The notes under the pieces were generated by a model. That model was given only the letters and a program-made list of their open reading frames with translations. It was not told where the DNA came from and did no database searches. The position numbers and the translations under genes are program-made. A stretch of 30,327 bases of DNA, from IMG/VR virus record IMGVR_UViG_3300044614_001342, positions 1-30,327 of that record. The stretch is one strand, 5' to 3'. Source of the stretch: a virus. How positions within the stretch are numbered: position 1 is the first letter of the stretch; every line of letters starts with the position of its first letter. Below, piece after piece: positions 1 through 26,197 of the stretch.

Positions 1-2
1 CT

Positions 3-107
3 AGAAAGAGAGCAAGAGAAACTCACGCTCAGAGAGAAATGGAGCGCGAAGCAGGAGCACAGCAGGCACAGAAGCGTGCAGAGATGAAAGCAATTATGAG
101 ACGTTGA
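3..107 (+). CDS. C-terminal end of an upstream gene (partial)
   Basis: An open frame enters from the left edge and ends at a TGA (105-107). The 34 visible residues are almost all Arg, Glu, Gln, Ala and Lys, ending EMKAIMRR, which suggests a charged helix or coiled-coil tail. I do not recognise the protein. Frame 1 is also open up to a TGA at about 85-87. I chose this frame because its stop codon abuts the palindrome of the next promoter, as happens at other gene ends here. The start lies outside the window. Confidence 0.5.
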   Translation, partial: RKRARETHAQREMEREAGAQQAQKRAEMKAIMRR

Positions 108-166
108 GTGGACACTTTAGAAACCGTCCACTGATTCGCCACCAGCACTCCAATCCCCTGTATATT
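108..166 (+). promoter_or_regulatory. Palindrome-type promoter for the 192-329 gene
   Basis: The inverted repeat GTGGAC-N12-GTCCAC (108-131) begins right after the upstream stop codon. The right half-site CGTCCAC ends 29 bases before a -10-like TATATT (161-166). There is no -35 box at the usual 17-base distance. The same arrangement recurs upstream of seven other genes in this window, with the half-site written either GTCCAC or TGGCAC. Confidence 0.6.
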
Positions 167-191
167 ACTTTTGTTCACTTGAGGAACACCC

Positions 192-329
192 ATGGATCAT
201 TTTGATGACATTCAAGTTGAAGAACTTTCTTCCTTCGATTTCGTGGAAGAAATGAATGAAGGTCTTTTTGATGAAGACCAAGACGACAAAACTTTCAACG
301 CATTTCTGAACTCTAACTGGGATTTTTGA
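192..329 (+). CDS. Small acidic protein, 45 aa, hypothetical
   Basis: The ATG at 192 follows TGAGGAACACCC, a reasonable ribosome-binding site, and the frame ends at TGA 327-329. The product is very acidic (MDHFDDIQVEEL... ending NSNWDF), with about a third Asp/Glu and few basic residues. No domain is recognised. It is the first gene of a two-gene unit: the next ATG begins two bases after the stop. An acidic phage protein of this size could mimic nucleic acid or bind a basic partner, but that is only a guess. The reading frame, start signal and context make the gene itself likely. Confidence 0.65.
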   Translation: MDHFDDIQVEELSSFDFVEEMNEGLFDEDQDDKTFNAFLNSNWDF

Positions 330-331
330 TC

Positions 332-523
332 ATGTCTGACACTGTAAACGTCCTTCCTCACATGCAAGAACTTCAGCAAGCATGGAGGCGTCAAGATTTT
401 AAGTTTACACAATCTCAAAGTGAAGAATACGAAATGCTACTCCAAGCACGTAGAGAACGTGTAAAGGAATTTTATGCAACTGGGCGAGTGAGCAAAGGTC
501 GCGCTAAAGTAGAAGGTATTTGA
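332..523 (+). CDS. Conserved-looking small phage protein, 63 aa
   Basis: The frame could extend to a TTG at 326, but the ATG at 332 (MSDTVNVLPHMQELQQ) lies two bases after the preceding stop and is the natural start. The protein is mostly helical by composition, with a basic Arg-rich middle (QARRERVKEFY, about residues 39-49) and a basic tail. It is probably translationally coupled to the acidic 45-aa gene before it. Its stop codon overlaps the start of the next promoter element, and a strong terminator follows. It resembles short helical cyanophage hypotheticals, but I cannot assign a function. Confidence 0.65.
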   Translation: MSDTVNVLPHMQELQQAWRRQDFKFTQSQSEEYEMLLQARRERVKEFYATGRVSKGRAKVEGI

Positions 524-525
524 AC

Positions 526-568
526 TGGCACAAGGGAACCGACAAGGTTCCCTTTTTTGTTTTATGAT
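526..568 (+). promoter_or_regulatory. TGGCACA box plus -10 (TATGAT), interrupted by a terminator
   Basis: TGGCACA (526-532) lies immediately after the stop codon of the 63-aa gene. A -10-like TATGAT (563-568) follows 30 bases later, matching the spacing of the other palindrome-type promoters. Here the left arm of the palindrome is missing, and a complete terminator hairpin fills the spacer. It would drive the gene starting at 590. Confidence 0.4.
534..558 (+). terminator. Rho-independent terminator
   Basis: GGGAACC (534-540), loop GACAA, GGTTCCC (546-552), then six T. The 7-bp stem is perfect. It ends the 192-523 unit. Confidence 0.9.
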
Positions 569-589
569 CACTTTGTGAGCAAAACACCA

Positions 590-1486
590 ATGCAAAACAA
601 GCACATTGAGCATCCTGAAGATACAATCCTTACAGGTGATCTGTCTGTATTGGATTGGATGTGTGAACCTGACAGTTTCATCAGTGTAAAAATTGATGGA
701 AGTCCCGCTATTGTTTGGGGTCGCAATCCTGCCAATGGAAAGTTTTTCGTTGGTACTAAATCTGTCTTCAACAAAGTAAAGATCAAGATCAATCATTCTC
801 ATGAAGAAATTGATGCGAACCATGAAGGCAAAGTTGCGACTATTCTTCACGCTTGCTTTGATAGTCTGCCTCGCACAAATCATGTCTATCAAGGTGATTT
901 TATTGGTTTTGGGGGTGATGATACTTATCGTCCCAACACGATTACTTACAAGTTCCGTGAGGTGATTGGGCAAAGTGTAATCATTGCTCCTCACACTGAG
1001 TATGAGTGTGATGATGATCTTCGCAATGCTATTGCATATCCTATCATCAGGCAGTTTGTTGATACTTTGGACGTGAAATGGGTGCAACCTGAAGCATCTA
1101 TTTGCCCTTATCGTGATGATATTGAAGACTTCTGCAAGTTTGCATTACAAATGAGCACCCTTTGCACTTTCGTGAATGAAAAACAAGCGAAAGAACTCAA
1201 AAAAGTCATCAATTCTTACATCCGCGAAGGTAAAGAGGTGGATGAGCATGAAATTGCAGAAAATTGTGATGTTGATGTAAACTTGATACGATTGTGGAAA
1301 CTCGTTGAATCTATCAAGATGGATTTGTTCTGCTTCATTGAATCTTATACTGATGTTGCCTGTGAGATTGATGGTGAGTTAAGTGATCATGAAGGATATG
1401 TGATGCATAATCAATTTGGATCATATAAGATTGTAAATCGTGATGAGTTTAGTAGATTGAACTTTACTATTGAAAAGAATTGGTAA
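590..1486 (+). CDS. Ligase-superfamily nucleotidyltransferase-like protein (DUF6267-like)
   Basis: The 298-aa product has the signature motifs of covalent nucleotidyltransferases (DNA/RNA ligases and capping enzymes). These are motif I KIDGS with candidate nucleotidyl-lysine K34, a motif III-like GDFIGFG (102-108), motif IV EGYVMH (268-273) and motif V YKIV with K280. The stretch from KIDGSPAIVWG through GKFFVGTKSVFNK resembles DUF6267-family proteins of T4-like phages. I see no DNA-binding or OB-fold extension, so this looks like a bare adenylation domain. The substrate (RNA end, DNA nick or protein) cannot be read from the sequence. The frame is open upstream to TTG 557 and GTG 575, but those fall in the terminator T-tract or at the predicted transcript start, so the ATG at 590 is preferred. 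It stands alone between two terminators. The nucleotidyltransferase fold is likely; the activity is inferred. Confidence 0.75.
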   Translation: MQNKHIEHPEDTILTGDLSVLDWMCEPDSFISVKIDGSPAIVWGRNPANGKFFVGTKSVFNKVKIKINHSHEEIDANHEGKVATILHACFDSLPRTNHVYQGDFIGFGGDDTYRPNTITYKFREVIGQSVIIAPHTEYECDDDLRNAIAYPIIRQFVDTLDVKWVQPEASICPYRDDIEDFCKFALQMSTLCTFVNEKQAKELKKVINSYIREGKEVDEHEIAENCDVDVNLIRLWKLVESIKMDLFCFIESYTDVACEIDGELSDHEGYVMHNQFGSYKIVNRDEFSRLNFTIEKNW

Positions 1487-1490
1487 CTCT

Positions 1491-1513
1491 AAACCACCTT
1501 CGGGTGGTTTTTT
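1491..1513 (+). terminator. Rho-independent terminator
   Basis: AAACCACC (1491-1498), tetraloop TTCG, GGTGGTTT (1503-1510), continuing in T residues. A compact UUCG-loop hairpin five bases after the stop codon. Confidence 0.9.
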
Positions 1514-1521
1514 AATAAATA
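1514..1521 (+). promoter_or_regulatory. Late promoter octamer (AATAAATA)
   Basis: AATAAATA resembles the T4-type late promoter TATAAATA. It lies directly behind a terminator and 19 bases before the ATG at 1541. The octamers before gp25 (10360-10368) and gp8 (24616-24625) lie 18-21 bases from their starts. Confidence 0.6.
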
Positions 1522-1540
1522 TTCAAAAAGTGTTTGTAAG

Positions 1541-2269
1541 ATGGCAAAGGATAAGACTGTAATTGGTATCACAGGTAAACCAATCCCAAAACCAAAAACT
1601 GCCAAGCAACAGTATGAATTGGAGAAGAAGAGAAGGATGGAAAAGCATCTAGGTAAGAATGTTGGTGGTTATCAATACAAATCTGATGTAACTCCATACT
1701 ACAATCCACGCGCTAGAACTTTTGAAGAGTTTATGAGTGTTTGTGAGGCAAGAGTTCTTACTCATAAATTCCCACTTTCTGCTGATGAACGTAAAACAGC
1801 AGAGAGAATCGGAAAAATGGCAGATTCTGATGCAAAACCAGCAAAACAGACCTCTACCATCAAATCTGGAAGAAAAATAAGAAAATTTGATTTGTCTTCC
1901 ATTGTGAAAGAGGCAAAAGAATCAAAACCACCACAAGAAGTTCTTGCTAAAATAGCAAAAGCATACGGTAGAAAACACCGTGGCGTGAATGTTGATACTT
2001 CTCATAGCGAAAAGAGTGGTAACATTCGGGTAAATCAACTGTGGGTTCCACCTGATAAGCAAGGTAAAGGAATCGGAACTAGAATTATGAAAGGTCTTGG
2101 TAAATATGCTGACAAAACTGGTAAGAAAATTACATTAAATCAAGACCCTGATCCTGGAAAGAAAGAGAAACTTAAAAAGTTCTATAAGTCTCACGGATTT
2201 GAGGCAAATAAAGGTAAGAAGAAAGATTTTTCAACATCTGACACATATATCAGAAATCCAAAGTCTTGA
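1541..2269 (+). CDS. GNAT-family acetyltransferase-like protein with a basic N-terminal half
   Basis: The 242-aa product is very Lys-rich. Its C-terminal third has a GNAT core: LWVPPDKQGKGIGTRIM (167-183), where QGKGIG fits the acetyl-CoA-binding R/Q-x-x-G-x-G/A motif, and then KLKKFYKSHGF (210-220), the usual alpha4/beta7 signature. Residues 1-60 are basic and Pro/Lys-rich. The segment TFEEFMSVCE (60-69) resembles the short acidic-hydrophobic motif near the N-terminus of many cyanophage virion-associated proteins. A late-type promoter just upstream suggests late expression, so the enzyme could act in or with the virion, which is inference. The acceptor substrate is unknown. The ATG at 1541 has only a weak ribosome-binding site. 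The domain call is fairly secure and the role is not. Confidence 0.7.
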   Translation: MAKDKTVIGITGKPIPKPKTAKQQYELEKKRRMEKHLGKNVGGYQYKSDVTPYYNPRARTFEEFMSVCEARVLTHKFPLSADERKTAERIGKMADSDAKPAKQTSTIKSGRKIRKFDLSSIVKEAKESKPPQEVLAKIAKAYGRKHRGVNVDTSHSEKSGNIRVNQLWVPPDKQGKGIGTRIMKGLGKYADKTGKKITLNQDPDPGKKEKLKKFYKSHGFEANKGKKKDFSTSDTYIRNPKS

Positions 2270-2270
2270 T

Positions 2271-2327
2271 GTGACAGTTTGAGAACTGGCACAATAGACT
2301 CGCACAGCACCCTAAATGGTGTATTGT
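2271..2327 (+). promoter_or_regulatory. Palindrome-type promoter for the 2352-2522 gene
   Basis: The inverted repeat GTGACAGTT-TGAG-AACTGGCAC (2271-2292) has one mismatch and starts one base after the stop of the GNAT gene. TGGCACA (2287-2293) is followed 28 bases later by TATTGT (2322-2327). The leader continues TTGAGACAAATCACC up to the ATG. Confidence 0.55.
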
Positions 2328-2351
2328 ATCTGTGTTGAGACAAATCACCTC

Positions 2352-2522
2352 ATGACTTTCAACCCTTACGTTGCACAACTGGTTGAGAAAGGTTACTCTG
2401 AGCAAGAGGTTCGTTCGACTCCTGCTCGCAAGCGCACTTTCCCCTGCACGATTGGTCTTCGCACCTTTAATACTGAAGAAGAGTATCGGGAAGCACTTGC
2501 AGATTTCCTGAACGGTTATTGA
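2352..2522 (+). CDS. Small hypothetical protein, 56 aa
   Basis: The ATG at 2352 (MTFNPYVAQLVEKGYSEQEV) is chosen over an upstream in-frame start at 2316, which would lie inside the promoter. The protein has an N-terminal helix, a basic PARKRTF stretch (about 24-30) and a C-terminal helix TEEEYREALADFLNGY. It has no cysteine pair or membrane segment. No known family is recognised. It is preceded by a palindrome-type promoter and followed within five bases by the next one, so it is probably a single-gene unit in the early or middle regulon. Confidence 0.65.
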   Translation: MTFNPYVAQLVEKGYSEQEVRSTPARKRTFPCTIGLRTFNTEEEYREALADFLNGY

Positions 2523-2526
2523 AATA

Positions 2527-2586
2527 GTGGACAGTCTCTAAACTGTCCACCAGACCTCTCAGAATCGCCCACAGTGCCTTTATACT
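2527..2586 (+). promoter_or_regulatory. Palindrome-type promoter with perfect inverted repeat
   Basis: GTGGACAGT-N6-ACTGTCCAC (2527-2550) is a perfect 9-bp inverted repeat, the best copy in the window. Thirty bases separate it from TATACT (2581-2586). The leader contains TTGAGGCAAACCACAC, matching the leaders at about 2335 and 7114. It drives the 2630-3139 genes. Confidence 0.65.
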
Positions 2587-2629
2587 GTGTTTGTTGAGGC
2601 AAACCACACATCAACCTCAATTTCTTATC

Positions 2630-2719
2630 ATGGCAACTGGCATTTTCTTTCTCATTGGTTACGCACTTGGTGGCGGACAAGTTTTACTGATTCAGTATCT
2701 GAACCGCAAAAAGTATTGA
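2630..2719 (+). CDS. Single-pass membrane micropeptide, 29 aa
   Basis: The ATG at 2630 opens MATGIFFLIGYALGGGQVLLIQYLNRKKY, ending at TGA 2717-2719. About 20 residues from Thr3 form one hydrophobic helix with a small GGG kink, followed by the positive tail NRKKY, so the C-terminus is probably cytoplasmic. It is the first gene of a three-gene run (2630-3139) with gaps of 3-6 bases. Function unknown. It is very short, but position behind a promoter and tight packing with the next gene support it. Confidence 0.5.
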   Translation: MATGIFFLIGYALGGGQVLLIQYLNRKKY

Positions 2720-2725
2720 TTCATC

Positions 2726-2869
2726 ATGAAGTACGAAGTTAAACTCTGGGTTTCTGGTCGCAACTTCACAGATTTCGTGTATGCAAACTCTCCTAGGGAT
2801 GCACGCGAAACTGCAGAAGCACGCAATCCTACCGCAAAAGTTGTTTCCGTGAATGGAACTTTTAAGTGA
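2726..2869 (+). CDS. Conserved small cyanophage-type protein, 47 aa
   Basis: The ATG at 2726 gives MKYEVKLWVSGRNFTDFVYA..., ending VVSVNGTFK. The pattern is a beta strand, a basic loop, a helix SPRDARETAEARNP (27-40) and a final strand. This RDARETAxARNPxAKVV arrangement is one I associate with short conserved proteins in T4-like cyanophages, recalled rather than searched. Six bases follow the membrane micropeptide and three bases precede the next ATG, so translation is likely coupled. Function unknown. Confidence 0.65.
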   Translation: MKYEVKLWVSGRNFTDFVYANSPRDARETAEARNPTAKVVSVNGTFK

Positions 2870-2872
2870 ATT

Positions 2873-3139
2873 ATGAAATACAACTTCAGCACTTCCAATC
2901 TTTCCAAAATCCGTCCCAAACTTCGGACACAAGGTAACATCACTGGAAATTTTGGTAAATCTAAAGTTTCCGCAGGTTCACCACTCAATGAGATTAGTGG
3001 TAGTGGTAACATAGGAGCAACACAAGATGAGTATTTGAATCGTCTTTATCATGCTTTTGATAACACTACCGATCCTAAACTTCGGCATTTTCTGTATCAG
3101 GAAGTCCGCAAAATCCACATCCAACGCGGAACTTGGTGA
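2873..3139 (+). CDS. Hypothetical protein, 88 aa
   Basis: The ATG at 2873 follows the previous stop by three bases. The first half is rich in Ser, Asn, Gly and Lys with little predicted order (residues 1-48). The second half is a likely helical region, DEYLNRLYHAFDNTT followed by KLRHFLYQEVRKIH (52-82), with a basic end HIQRGTW. No catalytic motif is visible. It is the last gene of the 2630-3139 run, and its stop codon overlaps the half-palindrome of the next promoter. I do not recognise the family. Confidence 0.6.
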   Translation: MKYNFSTSNLSKIRPKLRTQGNITGNFGKSKVSAGSPLNEISGSGNIGATQDEYLNRLYHAFDNTTDPKLRHFLYQEVRKIHIQRGTW

Positions 3140-3156
3140 CAGTTTTTCTGTATTCT
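3136..3156 (+). promoter_or_regulatory. -10 element TATTCT with a displaced half-site
   Basis: TATTCT (3151-3156), followed by the shared leader start TTAAAGAGTCAAAGAGG, is like the other small-gene promoters. Only a left half-site GTGACAGTT (3136-3144) is present, and it sits directly next to the -10 box. No TGGCAC or GTCCAC lies 29 bases upstream. It is a divergent or decayed member of the family. Confidence 0.4.
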
Positions 3157-3180
3157 TAAAGAGTCAAAGAGGTTTCCAAC

Positions 3181-3369
3181 ATGAACACCGTATTTGTCAC
3201 TCCAAAATCTAAGAAAGCAAAGAATAGATTCTGCAATATAATGGAGTCAAATCCTGAGTGCATTATTGAACAGAACAAAGGTGATCGTGTTTTTTTACGT
3301 TCACTGAATTCAAGGAACTTTTTCTGGGTTAATCTTCACAACGATTCTAACTGGCAGGTTGAACTGTGA
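3181..3369 (+). CDS. Hypothetical protein, 62 aa
   Basis: The ATG at 3181 lies 24 bases after the -10 box, with AAAGAGG upstream as ribosome-binding site. The sequence (MNTVFVTPKSKKAKNRF...) has a basic N-terminal stretch, two cysteines (C18, C27) and mixed beta-rich segments ending FFWVNLHNDSNWQVEL. Its stop TGA is embedded in the GTGA start of the next gene, a classic coupling overlap. No family is recognised. Confidence 0.6.
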   Translation: MNTVFVTPKSKKAKNRFCNIMESNPECIIEQNKGDRVFLRSLNSRNFFWVNLHNDSNWQVEL

Positions 3370-3557
3370 CTGAAACACAAGAACAATTGATTAGTAGCAT
3401 TGAACAACAACTTGAGAATTTGATGTCTCTTGATGTTAACTGTGAATACATGTATGAGTTTGAATTGTATTCGGATGATGAGCAACCAATTGTAGAACGA
3501 TTCACTCCTGAACTATTAAAAGAACTTGAGGATCTTGTTTACCAACTTGACAACTAA
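3366..3557 (+). CDS. Small acidic protein, 63 aa (GTG start)
   Basis: The start is GTG 3366, overlapping the preceding stop as GTGA. The product is acidic and helical (MTETQEQLISSIEQQLENLM...), ending ELLKELEDLVYQLDN, with heptad-like Leu spacing that suggests a coiled coil or helical hairpin. The only other in-frame start (Met20, MSLDVN) would remove the first helix. Function unknown. Confidence 0.6.
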   Translation: MTETQEQLISSIEQQLENLMSLDVNCEYMYEFELYSDDEQPIVERFTPELLKELEDLVYQLDN

Positions 3558-3596
3558 GGTGCAAGAGTACAACATCATGCGAGGTACTTGTTGATT

Positions 3597-3719
3597 ATGT
3601 TGATTCTCGGTGGATTTATTCTTACAATCTTCTCGATTCTATTTTATCTTGAAGATCGTGATGGTGGCGGTGTTTATGATCCCGATCCCTCTGCATCTTA
3701 TCGTCACAAAAAGAAATGA
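3597..3719 (+). CDS. Single-pass membrane micropeptide, 40 aa
   Basis: The ATG at 3597 gives MLILGGFILTIFSILFYLED: a strong hydrophobic helix (1-18), then an acidic and Gly-rich hinge EDRDGGG and a polar tail ending HKKK. A GCGAGG stretch lies about 12 bases upstream, a rather distant ribosome-binding site; a TTG two codons earlier could also start it. Its stop overlaps the ATG of the next membrane protein (ATGA), so the two are probably made together. Function unknown. Confidence 0.5.
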   Translation: MLILGGFILTIFSILFYLEDRDGGGVYDPDPSASYRHKKK

Positions 3720-3985
3720 CTAGCATTGATCCCGAAAAGTTTATTGCAGAACTCAATAAACTGAAAATGACACCTGAAGAGCGCAGAATTGCTGATGCCG
3801 AAGAATTGGGAGAGGTGATTGGTAAATCAGTTGCAGGTATCATTCTTCTTTTTATCTTTCCCACAATAATTTGGTCTATTCTTACTTTTATCTTTGCTCT
3901 TAACATTGCATGGGTAAAAGTATTTGGTGCATATTTCTTGTTCAATCTTTTTAAGAACATCATCGTCAAATCCTTCAAAAAGTAA
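3716..3985 (+). CDS. Membrane protein, 89 aa, one or two transmembrane segments
   Basis: The ATG at 3716 overlaps the previous stop. Residues 1-38 are soluble and charged (PEERRIADAEELGEVIGKS). Residues 39-82 are nearly all hydrophobic (VAGIILLFIFPTIIWSILTF, then FALNIAW and FGAYFLFNLF), long enough for two membrane passes, with a basic end KSFKK. The layout suggests both ends in the cytoplasm. It resembles small cyanophage membrane proteins of unknown role. The neighbouring micropeptide is also a membrane protein, which suggests a shared inner- or thylakoid-membrane task. Confidence 0.65.
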   Translation: MTSIDPEKFIAELNKLKMTPEERRIADAEELGEVIGKSVAGIILLFIFPTIIWSILTFIFALNIAWVKVFGAYFLFNLFKNIIVKSFKK

Positions 3986-4215
3986 TGATTTTTTTTCCTA
4001 ATCAAATGACGCAAACCACTGAAGTTCTGAATGCTTTTTCGCGTGCATTGGATGAATTGAATTTTTACAATTCATTTGTTTATGAGTATTGGTTAAGTGA
4101 GATTTGTATTGATGATGGAGATTTTATTTCTCTTGATGAATCAAAACTTACTGTTGAGAATTTAGTAAAGATTCAAAAAGAAGTAAAGAAACAAAAACAA
4201 CTAGTGGACAGTTGA
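3985..4215 (+). CDS. Hypothetical protein, 76 aa (or 69 aa from 4006)
   Basis: Two starts are possible. The ATG at 3985 overlaps the previous stop as TAATG; the ATG at 4006 gives MTQTTEVLNAFSRALDELNF. The first seven residues, MIFFPNQ, look unlike the rest, so the internal start may be correct, though overlaps are common here. The protein is acidic in the middle (ICIDDGDFISLDES) with a Lys-rich helical end (IQKEVKKQKQ). Its stop lies inside the palindrome of the next promoter. No family is recognised. Confidence 0.55.
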   Translation: MIFFPNQMTQTTEVLNAFSRALDELNFYNSFVYEYWLSEICIDDGDFISLDESKLTVENLVKIQKEVKKQKQLVDS

Positions 4216-5977: not shown

Positions 5978-5985
5978 AATAAATA
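5978..5985 (+). promoter_or_regulatory. Late-type octamer (AATAAATA)
   Basis: AATAAATA resembles the other late octamers but lies 68 bases from the start at 6054, farther than the usual 18-21. It immediately precedes a sigma-70 promoter, so the gene may have both early and late expression. Confidence 0.35.
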
Positions 5986-12703: not shown

Positions 12704-15700
12704 ATGACCGAGAGCAGAATCAAAATTAGTTCCATTGTTGAAAATCAACTTCCTGATTATGTAAAGGAAGAATTTCCGCTAGTTTCGGAATTTCTTTCGC
12801 AGTACTATCAAGCAATAGAAAATCAAGGAAGCACACTTGATATTCTACAGAATATTGATCGTTATGTAAAAGTTGATAACTTAACTAATCTAACTGATTC
12901 TACTCAGACAACATCTGATGTTTCGTTGTTTGATACGACAATTAATGTTGAAAGCACCTATGGATTTCCTGATTCATATGGTTTAATTATGATTGACAAT
13001 GAAATTATTACATATAAAGGTAAAACCGCTACATCGTTTACTGAATGTGTAAGAGGATTTGTTGGAATTGAAGAATATTATAATAATGATCAATTAAAGT
13101 TTTCTGATACAAACGTAGAGACGCATTCAAACGGATCTGTAGTTGAAAATTTAAGTATTCTTTTCCTAAAAGAGTTTTTTAATAAAGTTAAAACTCAGGT
13201 CACACCTGGATTTGAAGATCGATCTTTAAATTCCGAAATTAATCAAGGACTTTTTATTAAACAGTCTAACGATTTTTATTCGTCAAAAGGAACAGCACAC
13301 TCCTTTGAAATTCTTTTTAGAACTTTATATGGTAAGGATGTTGAAGTTATTCTTCCTAGGGATTTTCTCATCCAACCTTCGGATGCTCAATATAGAATTA
13401 CAAAAGATCTTGTAGTTGAAGCGATTGAAGGCGATCCATCAGACCTAGTAAACCTGACATTATATCAAGATTCAATCTATAATATTCCCGAGTCTAGGGG
13501 TACAATATCAAATGTAGAGAAAATTATTCGTGGAGATAAGGAATATTACGTAATTAGTTTAGATTTTGGTTACGATAACTTAAATGAAACTGGTCTTACT
13601 CTTGGAGATTTTACTGTACATCCAAGAACCAGAAACATAGTAGATATTGCTTCTGGTTCTGATACTCTTACTGTAGATTCTACTTTAGGATTTCCATCTT
13701 CTGGTGTTTTAGTAGTAAATTTAGAAAATGGTACGCAGTTATCAGTTAACTATGAATCTAAATCATCGACACAGTTTCATGGTTGCATTGGAATAACACA
13801 AGATATTTCAAAAAATAGTGAATTAAACTTAGATATTTTTGCTTTTGGATATGCAGATATTGAACAAACACAAATTGTAAAAGTAAGAGTTACTGGTGTT
13901 CTTTCTAATGTATTGTTAGATTCTCCCACCAAATATTATGATAAAGGAGATCTAATCAAGATTAGAACACTTGGCAAAGAGACTGATGATTTTAGAGCAA
14001 ATAAGTGGTTATTTAATATTTCATCTACCCATAATATAAAATCAGTTGTTGAATTAGACTCATTAAATTTTAAATATCGTATTGATCTTTTTGATCAACA
14101 TCTTTTTTATATCGGCGATTCAGTCACGATTGTACCTCCACAAGCACAACCAGTTTCTGAAGTTAAAGGTGTTATCAGTTCAATAAAAAATTCCACTTCC
14201 ATTATTGTATCTACTGAACAAAGGTTAATTTCTTTTGTACCATTTCAAATAAGAAAAAATATAGTTAATGTATTATCATCAAATAATTTAAGTTTAAACA
14301 AATATACAGCAAATGTTCAGAATACTTATTTGGATGGTATAAATTCTGTATATGTAACATCTCCATCTTTACCATATTATTTAAACAATTCTCTCATTAT
14401 TAGAGATAAAATAGTTACTTTCTCCGGAACATTCTTCGGGGATACTCTTTCTATCCCTAATCATAAGTTCTATACTGGTGACAGAATTGTCTATAATCCA
14501 GATGATGCTAACAATAAATTAGACTTATCTTCCGGGAAATATTTTGTTAGAAGAGTTGATTTGAACACAATAAAACTAAGTAGAAGTCTTAGTGATCTTT
14601 TTAATGATAGTTATGTAAGTGTATCAGGTACTGTTACCAATAATGTTTTTTATTATGAACCCTTTACTTTTGAAAATTTAAGCGCAAAGACAGTACAGAC
14701 CCAAAAATTAATTCGCCAAATTGCAAATCCAGTAACTACAAATACTAGAACTATAACTCCAGCAGGATTTACTGGAATTTTTATTAATGGTGTTGAACTG
14801 TTAAACTATAAATCAAATGATTATATTTACTATGGACCAATAACATCTGTTGATGTATTATCTGGCGGATTCAATTATGATGCCATAAATCCTCCATTAA
14901 TGCAAGTTAGTGATTCAGTGGGTTCTGGTGCTACTGCTTATTGTATTATTAATGGATCATTATCCAGAATTGATGTTATTGATGGTGGAATAAACTATTT
15001 GGAAACTCCTAGAGTCATCATAACTGGCGGAAATGGTTTTGGTGCTAGTGCTGTTGCAAATTTAGAGTCTTATGATTACTCAGTATCATTTAATTCTAAT
15101 CAATCTGCTGGGTATGTAAATTTAGCAAATAATACAATCGGATTTTCATCTTTCCACAAACTTAACAGTGGAGATGAGTTAATATACCAAACAAATCAAC
15201 AGCAAGGTATTGGTGGAATTACAACAAACTCATCTTATTTTGCATCAATAGTAGATGCGAGCACTATAAAATTACACACCAAATTAAGTGATGCTGTTAC
15301 TGGAATCAATACGATAAACTTATCTTCCCCATACGGCGAAGGAGTTCATACTTTAAAATCAAAATTTAAAAAGAGAAAAATCAGATCTTTAACTGTAATT
15401 AATACAGGATCTAATTATAGAAACAGAAGATTGTCTGTTGATTCTGTGGGAATTAGCACTGCAAACAATTCTATCAATATTGCAAATCATAATTTTAATA
15501 ATAAAGATGTAGTTGCATATCAAACTACAGGTTCGGCAATAAATGGATTGAATACCTCTAAGTATTATTATGTAAGAAAAATTGATAATGATAATTTTAG
15601 ATTATTTGATCAGTATACCACTGATGATAAACAGTTAATAGATTTTTATTATGAAACGAATCAACCAGTAAATCTTACCAGTGTTGGTAGTGGACTTCAT

Positions 15701-18700
15701 ATTTTTAGAGATAAACCAATACAAGTTCAACTGATTGGATCTGTTGGAGTGACTACTTTCACAAACCAAACATTTGATGCTGAACTTCAACTCATTTTCC
15801 GTGGACCAGTTGAATCAGTATTTGTAGAAGATGGTGGATCTGGTTATGGATCTGAAGAGATATTGAATTATAATAGACAACCTGAATTTATTTTAAAATC
15901 CGGAACAGGGGCTGAAGTAAGACCAGTAATATTAAATGGTTCTATTGCTGAAGTTTTTGTCGTAAGTTCCGGAACTGGATATAATTCTCCTCCGGATTTG
16001 TTTGTCGAAAGTCCTGGTGGATATGGTGCTATTTTAACTCCAGTAGTTGATCAGGGACTTTTAATTGAAGTAAAAGTTATTTCTGGTGGAGTTGGATATG
16101 GGCAATCAACAACTACAATTGATGTTTTGTCTGCCGGCCAAGAGGCAAAATTCAATGCAAATATAAAATCCTGGAATGTCAATTTAGTAGAAAGAAATAT
16201 CGATTCCGAAGAGATAAGAGATGATGATGGTATTATTGCCGAATCCCTGAAAGAAGATTTTGGTCTTGAATATTCTCATGCATATGCTCCAAGGAATCTA
16301 AGAAGATCCGCATTTAGTGAAAAATTTGTAAGTGGCGAAGCAATTTATGTTCCAGACCTGAATATTCAAAATGGAAGAGAAACATTATCAGATGCTCACT
16401 CTCCTATTATTGGATGGGCATATGATGGAAATCCAATTTATGGACCTTATGGATACTCAACTCCTTCTGGAGGTTCTCCAAAATTACTAAAATCTGGTTA
16501 TTCAATTTCATTGCAAGACAATCGTCCAAGTTTGAATCTTTATCCGGAAGGATTTTTTGTCGAAGACTATGAATATATTGGCGATGGAGATTTAGATCAA
16601 TCAAACGGAAGATTCTGCATAACACCAGAATATCCAAATGGTACTTATGCTTATTTTGCAACTGTATCTGATATAATCGAAACTGCGGGAATATTTGCAA
16701 ATTATAGAAAACCAACATTCCCATATGCGATTGGAGATTACTATCATTCAACTGCCAATTCACTTAATTTTTCTCCTCTATCCAATCAAGATGATTTTGA
16801 TCTTAATACAACTGGTTTGCTTAGAAATACAACTCCTTATTATTTGACTAGTGATAATAGTTCTTATGAATTTATAAAAAATCCAAATAAAATTAAAGAG
16901 CAAAATTCTAAAGTTACTAATGTAAGTTCAGGTGCAGTAACTTCAATTGATATTATTAACTCCGGAGATGATTATAATGTAGGAGACTCAATTTTATTTA
17001 ATAGTAGTGGAACTGGAGGAAGAGGAGCCAAAGCATATGTTTCTAGTATTGAAGGTAAGGAAATTGTAGGTATTTCAATTACAACAACCGAAATAGATAA
17101 TGTTGAATTAATTGGAAATATCGGCATCTCTTCTTCTCAGTTGGATTTAAAGAGTGGAGATTTTCTAACTATACAAGGAAAATTCCCGAATGATTTTAGT
17201 ATATCTCAAAGAATTGATGTAATCGGTAATAAATTGATTCTTTCTTCTGGAATTGGATCTGCTTCTTATACCGGAATAGTCACTTACATGAGTGTCTATC
17301 CACCAATAAATGCCTCTGTAAATAATTTATTTTATCTTGGTAATGAAATAATTAAAATATTAGATACTGATTTCGCAAATTCAAGAGTTAGAATACTCAG
17401 AAATCAAAATGGAACAACAGGTGTATCTTCATATTCTCCTGGATATGCATTAACAGAGTCTTCTACTAAATTCATTTACAATTCTGCCGGTCTTGCAGTA
17501 ACTTTCTTTGATAATAGAGAGTTATATTTTAATCCTGTAGAATCTGTTGGATTAGGAACTACGAGTGGTGTTGGAATTGGATTAACACTTTATTTCACAA
17601 ATCCTGGCTCTGGTGGAACATCTATATTTGTTCCAACGAGAACCATTTATATTCCCGGACACGAAATTCCAACTGGTACTATATTACTTTATCGTTCAAA
17701 TAACGGTAGTCCATTATCAATTTCGACAGATGGTATTAGTTCATTCAATTTAACTAATAATTCAATAGTATACTCTGCAAGAATATCTGAAGATTTAATC
17801 GGAATTTCTACAGTTCTCGTTGGACTAGGGACTACTGGAACTTTTGTTGGAGTTGGATCCACTAATGTGGGAACTTTATTATACTTCACAGGAATTGGAA
17901 CAGGTGTTTATCATAGTTTGAAATTAAATCCAACAAAAACAGTTAAGGCAGATCTATCAAAAAATACAGTAAATGTCTCAACTGCAGAAACTCATGGAAT
18001 GCTCATTGGAGAAAGTATTTCAATAACAGCATCTCCTCAATTATCCACAAGCGTATCTGTTTATTATAATGATTATAATAGAAGACTTTACATCAATCCA
18101 CTTTCATTTGGTGCCGCAGATGTTGATATCGTAAGCAAAACCATTACTTTAGAAAATCATAAGTTGGCAACTGGACAAAGTGTTATATTCAGACAAACTA
18201 CTCCAGTTGGTGGATTAGTTGATAATAAAATTTATTATGTAATATATTACGGCAAAAATTCCATTAAACTTGCAGAATCAATTTATGATGCATCAATTGA
18301 TAAAGTTTTAAACATAACTTCTACCGGATCAGGCACAATTTCTCCAATAAATCCGCAGATTTTTGTAACTAGAAATAATACTATTAATTTTGATTTATCA
18401 GATTCTTCTTTATCATTTACAAATAATACTGTAGATTATTCTGCTTTTGATTTCAAGATTTATAAGAATCCTAATTTTACTGAAGAATTTAATAAAACAT
18501 TAAATTCTTCTACATTCAATGTAATTAAAACAGGAATAATTGGTATTGATACTAATGCATCAATATCTTTAACTCTCAATGACGAGTTTCCTGATAGACT
18601 TTATTATAGACTAGAACCAAAAAATGATGATCTTTTACCACAGTCAAAACAAGAAATTATATTTGATAACCAATTAGTTGGTGCAGGAGAAATTGTTTTT

Positions 18701-21700
18701 GTTAATAGTGAATTATCGGGTTCTATTGTAGTTTCTGGTGTAGGAAGTACAACGTTTGTCTATACAATTCCTTTTGCTCCAGATGAAAGTTCATATAACA
18801 CATCTAATGGACTTTTTGAATATGAAAGGTTTACTGGTAAAGGAAAAATAAAAACAACCACTATAGAATCTGGCGGATCTAAGTATAAATCATTGCCTTC
18901 AATATCTGAAGTATTATCAACTCAGGGTGAAGATGGTTTATTATACTCTAATGGTGATAGTATTGGTTCTGTGAGTAATGTTGAAATTCAAGATATTGGA
19001 TTCTCATATCCTTCAGATTTCACTCTTCGCCCATCAGCAAAACTTCCTGATATTCTAAAACTTTATACTCTTTCAATATTTGATAGAATTGGTATTTCTT
19101 CTCGCGGAGTTAATTATGTAATACCACCAGATTTGGTAGTTATTGATGGAAAAACAAATCAACAATTAACAGATATAGATTTATCTTATGAACTCGGAGA
19201 TAGTGAAGTTAAAATTAATAAAAATGTATCCGGAATTTATGATATAAATCCAATTGTTCTACCAGTAAATAATTCAAATGGTATTGGAATTAATTCGATT
19301 ACTTATAATTCAACCACCAAAAATGTTACTGTATACTTAAAACCAAGTTTCAGTGATGTAGAATCTTTCCCATTTGCCGTTGGTGAAAGAATTCTTATTG
19401 AAGGTGTTGGCGTAGCATCATCCATTTCCACAATTAAAGGATATAATTCAGAAAATTATAATTATTCTCTATTCACTATAACATCCACTGATCCTAATAT
19501 TGGAGGATCTAATGGTTCCATCACTTATAATTTATCAGAGTACCTTTCAACCGGAGAGTCTCCTGGTATTGTTAGTATCAATGGATTTGTAGTACCAGAG
19601 AGATACTTCCCTATTTTTAATATCTCTCTGAAAAAATTATCATTTAGAACTAGTGAGATTATTTCTTCAAATTCTGCAAGTGGTATAGTACAACTGTGGG
19701 ATTTTAGAAATAACAATCTAAAGGTTGCAACAAATAATGACTTCGTAGTTGGAGAAGTTATTATTGGCGAGTCTTCTGGGGCAAGTGCAGTAATTGATGC
19801 AGTTTATAGTTCTGATGCATCTTATAATGTTGGATCTTCTTCCATTGTAAGAAATGGTTGGTTTAAGGAGACTGGTTTCTTAAACACAGATACTCAAAGA
19901 ATTCAAGATAGCGATTATTATCAGTATTTCTCATACTCACTAAAATCTGAAATTTCCTTTGATCAGTGGGAAGATGGTGTTAGCACTTTGAATCACACTG
20001 CGGGATTTAAAAAGTTTAGTGATCTTGTAATTAATTCATCTTCAGGATTTATTGGATTATCAACGACTCAGGATAAATCAGAATTTACTGGAATTGCTGA
20101 TCTGTATAATGTTAAGAGCCTTCATTGCTTTGATGATTATGATTTGGTATCTGAAAATAATATTACGATAAGCAATAAGCAGTATTCAGATAGAATAAAA
20201 TTTAATTCCAAAATTATCCAAGACTATATTGAATCTATCGGCAATAGAGTTTTAAAAATTGATGATATAAGTTCCCAGTTTAATAGTAATCCAAGATCAA
20301 CTAGATTTAGTGAAGTTGATTCATTTGACATTGATGAATATAGATCTAAAAAATATGTTATTTACATATCAGATAGAAGATTCCCGACTGAAAAAGAAAC
20401 CCTTTTAGTCACTCTTCTTCATGATAATAATATTGGTTATTTAAATCAATATGCTAGAGTTGAAACTGGAGAAGATCTAGGATATTTTGATTTCAGTGTT
20501 AGTGGAACTGAAGGAAGTCTATTATTCTATCCAAATAAATTTAGTGTTAATAATTACAGTTTAGAATATACTTCTTTCGGAATTAAAGATTCCATAGCAG
20601 GAATAGGAACTCAAAACTTAGGCAATGTAGTAAAAATTCATTCACACACTTCCAATATTTCTGTTGGAAATACTACTACAACTGTTGTAGGAATTGCATC
20701 AACTTATAGATCTTCTAAAGTTTTAGTTCAAATTGGTGCAACAGACAAGTCTTACTTTGAATTTAATGAAATTACTTTATTGCATAATAATCAAGATGTT
20801 TTCTTTATTGATTATGGGCAATTGACGACTGGAAACTTTAGTCCTTATTCTTCATCTGGAATAGGAACATATCACGCTTATTTAAGTGGGTCTAACTTAA
20901 ATCTAGATTTTATATTGAACAGTGCTTCATCAGTAGAATATAACATCAATTCAATTGTTGTATCTATAGCAAATACTTCCTCTACGGGAATCGGATCTAC
21001 TGCAGTTGGCGGAAGTCTTCTAGATTCTAATTATGTTTCTATTGCTTCTTCAACATCACCAGTATCAACTAACATTGCTCAGCATAGTACAACTTATAAT
21101 TCATCTTATTATGTTGTATGTGTAGAAGATACTACAAATAGTAATTACCAAATATCCGAAATTGTAGTTACTAATCATAATACAGATTCTACAATTACAG
21201 AATATGGAATTGTAGAATCTAATGGAATTCTAGGCGATTTTGATTCTAGTATTTCTGGAACAAATGTTTATTTGAACTTTACTCCAATCCCAAATATTCA
21301 ATGTCAGATTAGAGTATTCAAGGTTCACTCTGGACTAGATGAGACTGAGGGTGTAATTAACTTCATTAATTCTGATATTGATTCTTCATATGGATTATAT
21401 CAAGGAACTGATATTGATATTAAGAGGGAATTTGATCTTACGCACAATCTTCTTCCTATCTTCCAGAAAGAATTCAATGCCTCTCAGACAAATATTGTTG
21501 ATGTTACTAATGATTTAATTTACGTTCCTGGACATTATTTTGTAACTGGAGAAGAGGTTGAATATTCTTATCAAGGTGGTCCAATTGGAATTGCTACAAC
21601 AACAATCACTGGAATTGGAACAACAGATAAACTACCAAGTTCTGTTTATATTGTAAAAGTTGATGATCTGAATGTAAAGGTAAGTGCTTCTGCATCTGAA

Positions 21701-24622: not shown

Positions 24623-24625
24623 ATA
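24616..24625 (+). promoter_or_regulatory. Late promoter CTCATAAATA for gp8
   Basis: CTCATAAATA overlaps the stop codon of the giant gene and ends 18 bases before the gp8 ATG, the same spacing as at gp25. It would let gp8 and downstream genes be made independently of the 12-kb transcript upstream. Confidence 0.65.
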
Positions 24626-24643: not shown

Positions 24644-26197
24644 ATGTCTGCAATTATAACTGACCAATTAAGAATACTGAATGCGAAGAGTTTTGTTTCG
24701 GGAATAACAACCACCGATAATGCTTATTACTCTTTTATAGGATTACCTAACGCAACTGATTATTCTTCAACCTGGGATGTTACTCCTCCTGCACCTATTG
24801 ATAATTTTGATCAGGAGAATGACTATTACGATACTATGATTGCTTTGAAGAGAATTAGATCTGATGACGTAAGACAGATGATTAGGAAGGTTACCTGGTC
24901 ATCTGGAACAACTTATGATATGTATCGCCACGATATTAGTCGCAATAATACTTCAAAACCATCTGGAGCTACAAGTCTTTATTACGCAAATTATTACGTA
25001 TTGAATAGTGATTATCGAGTTTATATTTGCCTAGATAATGGAATAAGTCCAGAAACTCCAAGTGGAAGACCTTCACTGGATGAACCAACTTTCACTGATC
25101 TAGAACCAAGATCGGCAGGAAATAGTGGCGATGGATATATTTGGAAATATCTTTATACAATTAGACCTAGTGAAATTGTAAAATTTGATTCTACTGATTA
25201 CATACCCGTTCCTATTGACTGGGAAACGAGTGATAGGGACTCCGCAGTTAGAAATAATGCAACAACAAGCGGACAGTTGAAGGTTATAACAATCACTAAT
25301 CGTGGTGTTGGTGTTGGAACTGCAAACAGAGTTTATAGTAGAGTGCCAATTAGAGGTGATGGAACTGGAGCAGAAGCAACTATTCTAGTCAACAGTGAGT
25401 CAAAAGTAGAATCTATTACTATTTCAAATGGGGGATCTGGATATACTTATGGTTCAGTTGATTTAGAAACTGGTGGTGTACCCACCGGAACAACAAGACC
25501 TACTTTTGATATAATCATTCCACCAAAAGGAGGTCACGGAGCAGATATTTACAGAGAACTTGGTGCTTTTAATGTTTTAGTTTATTCTAGAATTGAAAAT
25601 GATGACCAAAATCCAGATTTTATAACTGGAAACCAAATCGCGAGAATTGGTTTAGTTGAAAACCCAGAAGCGTTCAATTCAACTAATATACTTGATGTAA
25701 ATAGGGCAAGTGCAGTATATGCTATTAAATTATCTGGTATAGCATATAGTACAACCACATTTGATGCAGATTCAAGAATTTTCCAAACAGTTGGAACAGG
25801 AATAACTGCAGTAGGAAGAGTTATCTCTTACAATCAAAATACTGGAGTTCTTAAATATTGGCAAGACAGAACCTTCGTTGGATTCAATACTAATGGAACT
25901 CAAAATAATTCTCCACAATATGGATTTAACTTGACTAGATTTACTGCTTCTCCATCTACTGGAGGAAGTGTTACGATTACTGGAGGTTCTTCGAATCTGG
26001 GAATTGATACTACGTTTACTGGCGTCACCACCACTATAAATAATAGAAATTATTATCTGGGACAGTCCTTCGCAAATGGAGTGTCCAATCCAGAAGTTAA
26101 AAAATACTCTGGAAACATTATTTACGTGGACAATAGACCATCAATAACCAGGTCTCAAAACCAAAAAGAAGATATAAAAGTTATTTTGCAATTCTAA
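24644..26197 (+). CDS. 8: Baseplate wedge protein gp8, extended form
   Basis: The 517-aa product is in the gp8 position and its first 190 residues fit the gp8 family: MSAIITDQLRILNAKSFVSG, VTPPAPIDNFDQENDYYDTM, ALKRIRSDDVRQMIRKVTWS, YYVLNSDYRVYICLDNGISP and GDGYIWKYLYTIRPSEIVKF. T4 gp8 is 334 aa. The extra length includes a Gly-rich SGGxGYxxG module near 250-300 (VESITISNGGSGYTYGSVDL, RPTFDIIIPPKGGHGADIYR), also abundant in the giant protein. gp8 dimers join the wedge at gp7 and gp6. It has its own late promoter. The ATG at 24644 has no Shine-Dalgarno sequence. It is followed after six bases by the next structural gene. Confidence 0.9.
   Translation: MSAIITDQLRILNAKSFVSGITTTDNAYYSFIGLPNATDYSSTWDVTPPAPIDNFDQENDYYDTMIALKRIRSDDVRQMIRKVTWSSGTTYDMYRHDISRNNTSKPSGATSLYYANYYVLNSDYRVYICLDNGISPETPSGRPSLDEPTFTDLEPRSAGNSGDGYIWKYLYTIRPSEIVKFDSTDYIPVPIDWETSDRDSAVRNNATTSGQLKVITITNRGVGVGTANRVYSRVPIRGDGTGAEATILVNSESKVESITISNGGSGYTYGSVDLETGGVPTGTTRPTFDIIIPPKGGHGADIYRELGAFNVLVYSRIENDDQNPDFITGNQIARIGLVENPEAFNSTNILDVNRASAVYAIKLSGIAYSTTTFDADSRIFQTVGTGITAVGRVISYNQNTGVLKYWQDRTFVGFNTNGTQNNSPQYGFNLTRFTASPSTGGSVTITGGSSNLGIDTTFTGVTTTINNRNYYLGQSFANGVSNPEVKKYSGNIIYVDNRPSITRSQNQKEDIKVILQF

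Follow-up and report, generated by a model that had tools for sequence, protein, structure and literature searches.

Near the left end of a viral DNA of 30,327 nucleotides (IMG/VR record IMGVR_UViG_3300044614_001342; the whole stretch is called the window below) lies a gene whose short product was predicted, from the letters alone, to carry the motifs of a covalent nucleotidyltransferase without any visible DNA-binding or OB-like domain. The locus thus raises the question of whether so bare a protein indeed belongs to the superfamily of ligases and capping enzymes, and if so, on what and where it would act. Its family, known to Pfam as DUF6267, ranks with the most widespread of the genes that lack an explanation in T4-like cyanophages, viruses abundant in the ocean. 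It also bears on the way in which DNA is sealed in cyanophages that have no known DNA ligase, or on whether these repair RNA against host nucleases.

The gene and its surroundings

The gene, its neighbour and the elements between them are listed here with coordinates of the window.

532 to 554, plus strand: terminator-like hairpin with U-tract, upstream of the gene (-15.4 kcal/mol, z -4.3)
590 to 1486, plus strand: DUF6267 / phrog_455 / T4-GC71 covalent-nucleotidyltransferase-like protein, 298 aa (Pfam, PHROG, AlphaFold2, VIA-align)
1491 to 1510, plus strand: terminator-like hairpin with UUCG loop and U-tract, downstream of the gene (-11.2 kcal/mol, z -3.9)
1541 to 2269, plus strand: neighbouring GNAT acetyltransferase (Pfam); homologues of the same clade near DUF6267 have an N-terminal capsid targeting sequence

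The open reading frame runs from the ATG at 590 to a stop at 1486. A longer form starting from the TTG at 557 is unlikely, since the homologues begin at the same methionine as the ATG. About 35 nt separate this ATG from the upstream hairpin. The gene had been described as a one-gene unit between two terminators and next to a GNAT gene, and the framing elements bear this out: both are hairpins with U-tracts whose folding energies lie well below those of shuffled controls, although a simple terminator pattern scan picks up the upstream one, misses the downstream one, and with a total of 4 hardly exceeds the mean of 2.8 expected by chance. The neighbour is indeed a GNAT protein by its match to Acetyltransf_7 (E 4.8e-8, Pfam). 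As for the one-gene unit, both hairpins are real, but most relatives outside the window's clade adjoin, or are fused to, another gene, T4-GC190, so that this part of the claim stands for the window rather than for the family. Among positions 1 to 4000 no promoter-like site stands out for the gene, 9 being found against 9.4 expected.

Several minor features concern the GNAT gene. The protein has in common with an S-SRM01 protein an N-terminal module of about 95 aa and also contains the internal sequence RTFEEFMSVCEARVL, and the motif FEEFMSxCEA is kept in short relatives downstream of DUF6267 (for example at loci L016 and L024). The heptamer ATAAATA, which we take to resemble the T4-type late promoter consensus, occurs in 4 copies in the window against 15.7 expected (1515 to 1521, 5979 to 5985, 24619 to 24625 and 26036 to 26042), and two of these lie just upstream of gene starts, namely those of the GNAT gene at 1541 and of an open reading frame at 24644; such a late promoter-like site would make the GNAT gene a late one.

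Family and distribution

The product matches Pfam PF19782 (DUF6267) with an E-value of 2.5e-82 and 277.7 bits against a curated cut-off of 27, and phrog_455 with an E-value of 4.1e-128. Both are families of unassigned function, annotated phages use the name T4-GC71, and our literature search found no paper naming DUF6267; the family is known as a DUF. By tblastn it is present in 467 phage records, mostly of T4-like cyanophages: by name these are Synechococcus (369), Cyanophage (61), Prochlorococcus (24), Methylophilales (4), Marine (3) and Pelagibacter (2), with one record each for Stenotrophomonas, Vibrio, Pseudoalteromonas and 'Phage'. By its genes the window belongs to a T4-like cyanophage, and among named phages SynMITS9220M01 is nearest, with 71% identity; in the second half of the window, positions 12704 to 24622 form a single open frame of 3972 aa. 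The DUF6267 proteins of other clades have about 400 aa, motifs I and IV being further apart in them. Bacterial and archaeal assemblies yielded 39 further loci, nearly all from metagenome bins, and these look like phage contigs. One of them comes from the isolate assembly of Nonlabens xiamenensis 1Q3, where a 188 kb contig with DUF6267 (L517) may be the genome of a T4-like phage that the culture harbours.

For the counts given below, a DUF6267 frame was present in 407 loci or records, and the 394 proteins kept come from five scans of viral contigs; the window and six named records were left out on purpose, the remainder because they had no usable start methionine. The conservation alignment has 392 rows, namely the window and those 391 of the 394 proteins that have at least 280 aa, while the alignment for the structure model (A1) has 81 rows. 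Counts of capsid targeting sequences on DUF6267 use the 394 proteins.

Motifs and conservation

The features within the coding region are as follows, with residue numbers of the protein and counts from the 392-row alignment.

602 to 622, plus strand: N-terminal H-x-E-H-x-E-D signature, residues 5 to 11, just upstream of motif I (H5 392/392, H8 391/392, E10 388/392, D11 391/392)
689 to 703, plus strand: motif I KIDGS, residues 34 to 38, with K34 the predicted nucleotidyl acceptor (K34, D36, G37 and P39 392/392)
893 to 913, plus strand: motif III-like GDFIGFG, residues 102 to 108, with D103, on strand 99 to 107 by DSSP (Q101 and D103 392/392)
1115 to 1336, plus strand: helical insert between motifs III and IV, residues 176 to 249 (DSSP helices 176 to 189, 197 to 213, 219 to 226 and 230 to 249)
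1391 to 1408, plus strand: motif IV EGYVMH, residues 268 to 273, with E268 (E268 and G269 392/392, V271 390/392)
1424 to 1435, plus strand: motif V YKIV, residues 279 to 282, with K280, and V282 at the place of the second lysine (K280 392/392)

Motifs I, III, IV and V were thus found in the places and the order first proposed, and since their key residues (K34, D36, G37, D103, E268, G269 and K280) are identical in all 392 rows, the four short strings are more than chance matches. The full set of invariant residues comprises H5, K34, D36, G37, P39, K57, F60, Q101, D103, P115, N116, H135, T136, Y138, N208, E268, G269 and K280. The segment GDFIGFG would be the equivalent of motif III; its first residue, G102, varies as G in 312, A in 79 and C in one of the rows. 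At position 282 there is valine in 387 rows and isoleucine in 5, so no row has the second lysine of motif V.

Such a pattern bears on the reading that DUF6267 is a catalytically dead ligase fold, kept for a structural or scaffolding role among the proteins packed in the head. The missing motif V lysine would be in line with this, as would the association with packaged proteins described below; however, the catalytic lysine, the acidic residues and the other motif V lysine are kept in 392 of 392 rows, and absolutely conserved catalytic residues are not what a dead enzyme leads one to expect, so that we find this reading hardly credible.

Predicted fold

The AlphaFold2 model, built from the 81-row alignment, has a pLDDT of 92.8 and a pTM of 0.87. 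In VIA-align its best match is the RNA ligase of Naegleria gruberi (Z 8.9, 3.7 A over 178 residues), followed by T4 Rnl1 (Z 8.3, 3.4 A over 155 residues) and T4 Rnl2 (Z 7.3, 175 residues), with other RNA and tRNA ligases, and DNA ligases at about 6, in the lower ranks. The Z values, all under 9, are moderate; the composition of the list is uniform, as covalent nucleotidyltransferases make up all of the 50 rows listed, and RNA ligases rank above DNA ligases and capping enzymes. Foldseek agrees in kind: each of its first 15 rows is a ligase of DNA or RNA, a capping enzyme or the adenylation domain of a ligase, and none is significant (E-values above 0.03). Structures of NAD+-dependent ligases appear in the Foldseek list at poor scores only and are absent among the 50 VIA-align rows listed, an absence to which we give no weight. 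A fold unrelated to the ligase superfamily had been named beforehand as the outcome that would speak against the prediction, and the model points the other way.

The four motifs sit on strands before residue 176 and after residue 249, on both sides of the helical insert. The model has neither an OB nor a DNA-binding domain, the chain ending 18 residues after K280 in a single helix, which is just what the original prediction had said of the accessory domains.

Comparison at the level of sequence gave a different outcome. Searches of the PDB by phmmer and by profile returned nothing meaningful, no ligase family is among the 25 Pfam families listed for the 81 members, and hhalign finds no profile similarity either to Rnl2 (probability 0.4) or to Rnl1 (PF09511, probability 1.7). 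The profile of ATP-dependent DNA ligases (PF01068) has no match in the window's protein, where no OB domain follows. With the sequence routes failing, the kinship rests on the fold together with the motifs, and on these two we hold that DUF6267 very probably is a member of the covalent nucleotidyltransferase (ligase and capping) superfamily. As profiles do not join it to Rnl1 or Rnl2, we would treat it as a new family of this superfamily, one whose predicted fold is RNA-ligase-like. The assignment makes DUF6267 directly testable by a K34-dependent adduct.

Comparison with RNA ligases

T4 Rnl1 (PF09511) shares with DUF6267 the order of the motifs and, by eye in the T4 frame, an EGYV closely followed by a motif V of the K-I/L type, whereas DUF6267 has a longer spacing between motifs III and IV with the helical insert. 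Moreover, both motif V lysines are invariant in the alignments of Rnl1 (K240 and K242) and Rnl2 (K225 and K227), while DUF6267 keeps only one. Rnl1 also has flanking domains, none of which DUF6267 has. The Naegleria ligase and T4 Rnl2 (PF09414 type) are the best-fold comparison by the scores above, yet the former has an OB domain and the latter a C-terminal domain, and DUF6267 is without either. Its single-lysine motif V, its helical insert, the lack of an OB domain and the association with virion-delivered proteins would together set DUF6267 apart from other ligase-fold enzymes. The idea that it ligates RNA, put forward with the gene, fits the structural ranking of the model. A true Rnl1 is also encoded in three of the records that have DUF6267, however, so that the latter is not a simple substitute.

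DNA ligase and DUF6433

It is also to be considered whether DUF6267 seals DNA. PF01068 is found in none of the 5 Kyanoviridae records tested and in 2 of 18 viral contigs, and the NAD+-dependent DNA ligase (PF01653) in none of 25 records, 24 of which have DUF6267. According to an excerpt of PMC7824862, most cyanophage-type jumbo phages have no known DNA ligase and encode a stand-alone ligase DNA-binding domain, AAX44695.1. We find that AAX44695.1 is DUF6433 (T4-GC313), a family that covers nearly the same set of phages as DUF6267 (475 against 467 records by tblastn) and occurs in 21 of 25 DUF6267 records, the four without it being contigs of 38.6 to 126 kb, and is absent from T4. The two are different proteins, and their genes are not neighbours.

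One reading of these data would be a DNA ligase split in two, of which DUF6267 would be the catalytic half and DUF6433 the DNA-binding half, in cyanophages without a DNA ligase gene. To the lack of PF01068 and PF01653 and the shared occurrence of the two families in phages other than T4 may be added that the DUF6433 profile touches the N-terminus of the DNA ligase frame of Stenotrophomonas phage DLP6 (KU682439.2, the record of L083, 126004 to 126150) with an E-value of 6.5e-4, which would lend weak but independent support to the kinship of DUF6433 with the DNA-binding domain of ligases. Nevertheless DLP6 and two further records (G007 and G008) hold a DNA ligase match and yet keep both DUF6267 and DUF6433, and in Vibrio phage 2.275.O, which gives no match to DUF6433, DUF6267 stands beside a DNA ligase. 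This last absence is weak, since the profile search there found nothing on its controls either; tblastn with DUF6433 counted no Vibrio record. Accordingly, DUF6267 as a replacement DNA ligase in the simple form was set aside on account of these four phages. Moreover, co-occurrence is expected of any core gene of a lineage, as which both DUF6267 and DUF6433 look, DUF6267 has no OB domain, and RNA ligases surpass DNA ligases as matches of its fold. The split enzyme is thus possible but not favoured, joint action of the two proteins being hypothetical, and we consider it improbable.

Capsid targeting sequences

The internal proteins of T4, as described in an excerpt of PMC9026906, have targeting residues at positions 4 and 7 and processing residues at 8 and 10, with cleavage after L/I-x-E. 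T4 IPII and IPIII are packed by means of their first ten residues, the T4 record reading MKTYQEFIAEA with the next residue included. The long DUF6267 proteins related to that of DLP6 start with, for example, MKKFSTYLAEAKNT, and their first ten residues follow the pattern of IPIII (aromatic at 4 and 7, L or I at 8, E at 10). With a strict pattern built on the T4 tag, such an N-terminus was found in 74 of the 79 DUF6267 proteins of the DLP6 clade, with E at position 10 in 70, and in 5 of 76 in the Pelagibacter-phage group, but in 0 of 80 in the window's clade and 0 of 80 and 0 of 79 in two other groups. Among 66 CDSs of T4 the pattern picks out only ipII and ipIII, and on shuffled N-termini its rate is 0.0018. 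Other frames of at least 100 aa in the same loci, with any of the first three methionines allowed, have it in 63 of 730 cases in the DLP6 clade, 25 of 470 in the Pelagibacter-phage group, 12 of 667 in the window's group, and 2 of 522 and 0 of 569 in the other two. In the tree of DUF6267 the tag is confined to one clade, in which 37 of 41 rows are tagged (support 100/99). Moreover a gp21-type protease gene is present in 22 of the 25 records searched, T4 included.

The tagged proteins of T4 are small internal ones; those of the tagged DUF6267 clade look like enzymes and have about 400 aa, and the copy in the window is untagged. We distinguish two claims: that DUF6267 is packaged in the virions of the tagged clade appears likely, while packaging of the window's own protein seems rather doubtful. 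In the window's clade it is homologues of the neighbouring GNAT protein that bear the tag near DUF6267 (L014, L046, L047, L048 and L079, with L046 and L079 confirmed as GNAT by Pfam). At 10 of 80 loci of the DLP6 group DUF6267 has nearby a HAD phosphatase that falls into the polynucleotide-kinase PHROG (phrog_415), some of these being tagged. Frames of this phosphatase with a capsid-targeting-like N-terminus near a tagged DUF6267 are L256:5396-6001, L285:2406-3062 and L292:4755-5447. Among the matches listed, the literature search found no capsid-targeting term together with cyanophages or Kyanoviridae. Tagging of DUF6267 or of its partner suggests that enzymes enter the host along with the phage DNA; such enzymes have received little study except in T4.

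The partner T4-GC190

In most clades the gene directly downstream of DUF6267 is T4-GC190 ('cytidyltransferase', phrog_395 / phrog_3041). By profile it was detected at 78, 60, 49 and 73 of 80 loci each in four groups, and at 0 of 80 in the window's group; as the flanks are of uneven length, some misses may reflect locus ends. A motif expression without the FQPPT variant had found GC190 at 1 of 44 loci in the Syn1 group, where the profile census gives 78 of 80, and the tag counts use only frames with the motif (75 in c19, 60 in c20, 28 in c21 and 73 in c22). In S-PM2 the two proteins are fused, with residues 1 to 401 for DUF6267 and 407 to 588 for GC190 (also by Pfam), and likewise in metaG-MbCM1, with residues 1 to 305 and 381 to 697.

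The carrier of the tag changes from group to group. In the S-RIM2 group it is on GC190 in 73 of 73 frames and on DUF6267 in 0 of 79, while in the DLP6 group GC190 is tagged in 1 of 28 frames by the strict and 8 of 28 by the relaxed pattern, DUF6267 bearing the tag instead. No GC190 is tagged among 75 frames of the Syn1 group and 60 of the Pelagibacter-phage group. In the window's group GC190 is far from DUF6267, and is tagged in SynMITS9220M01, P-SSM2 and two contigs. For phage S-SM1, whose GC190 begins with MKKFSAFLNEAE, an excerpt of PMC3037559 has GC190 detected by mass spectrometry in purified virions; a tag of this kind thus marks a protein experimentally found in a cyanophage virion. The same excerpt does not have T4-GC71 among the nine S-SM1 virion proteins called newly found relative to S-PM2, and since S-PM2 encodes GC71, DUF6267 was either undetected in S-SM1 or already known from S-PM2.

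GC190 itself is of another kind than DUF6267, with a fold of the HIGH superfamily nearest to NMN/NaMN adenylyltransferases and not that of a covalent nucleotidyltransferase. Its HIGH domain matches TIGR00482 (NMN/NaMN adenylyltransferase) in 18 of 30 members and CoaD in 2 of 30, all these NCBIfam equivalog matches being under the curated cut-offs, and PDB sequence searches returned nothing. The model is of low confidence (pLDDT 60.7) and is matched about equally by universal stress proteins, PPAT, NaMN adenylyltransferase and cytidylyltransferase structures, and because these matches are undiscriminating, the NCBIfam profiles were relied on.

Possible mechanism and substrate

We propose, with about even confidence, that DUF6267 is an RNA-ligase-type adenylyltransferase forming part of a virion-delivered set for repair or take-over, the catalysis, the nucleotide, the RNA substrate and the packaging being what we infer for it. 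K34 would attack the alpha-phosphate of a nucleotide, most likely ATP, to give a lysyl-AMP enzyme, with D103 and E268 assisting through a metal and K280 contacting the phosphates. A 5'-phosphate end, in all likelihood that of an RNA, would then receive the AMP and be sealed as by T4 Rnl1 or Rnl2, the helical insert standing in for the missing OB or RNA-binding domain. The enzyme may act within a set of proteins packed into the head and injected by T4-like marine phages, where the tag would be carried, depending on the clade, by DUF6267 itself or by its operon partner GC190, to which it is fused in some cyanophages. As the gene of the window's clade is untagged and separated from GC190, its product probably either works inside the host after infection or is carried along by binding to a partner.

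The same lysyl-nucleotide chemistry could also serve another acceptor, namely a protein, a small molecule or an RNA 5' end, in which case DUF6267 would be an injected take-over effector acting beside the GNAT and HIGH-type transferases, without strand sealing. The tagged GNAT neighbours in the window's clade are in line with such a role, and so are the resemblance of GC190 to adenylyltransferases of nucleotide metabolism, the lack of a nucleic-acid-binding domain in DUF6267 and its missing second lysine of motif V. However, capping enzymes come after RNA ligases in the fold ranking, DUF6267 otherwise retains the motifs by which ligases bind the nucleotide, and phosphatases of the polynucleotide-kinase family are neighbours at 10 of 80 loci of the tagged clade; on balance we regard the effector role as unlikely, though less so than the split DNA ligase.

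Returning to end sealing, a more specific version would make DUF6267 and GC190 a self-refuelling, virion-delivered machine running on NAD+. This cofactor would donate its AMP to DUF6267 and leave NMN, the HxEHxED signature of DUF6267 holding the nicotinamide end, and the NMN-adenylyltransferase-like GC190, adjacent or fused, would remake NAD+ from NMN; the partner with the capsid targeting sequence would bring the pair into the head and then into the host, for repair of nucleic acid in the first minutes of infection. In LigA the nicotinamide end is held by the Ia domain, and a single-lysine motif V would fit NAD+-dependent enzymes. We deem this version very improbable. As to the annotation of the fused genes, the frame L506:2501-4687 of metaG-MbCM1, which codes for the DUF6267-GC190 fusion, is misannotated as 'NrdB ribonucleotide reductase A subunit'.
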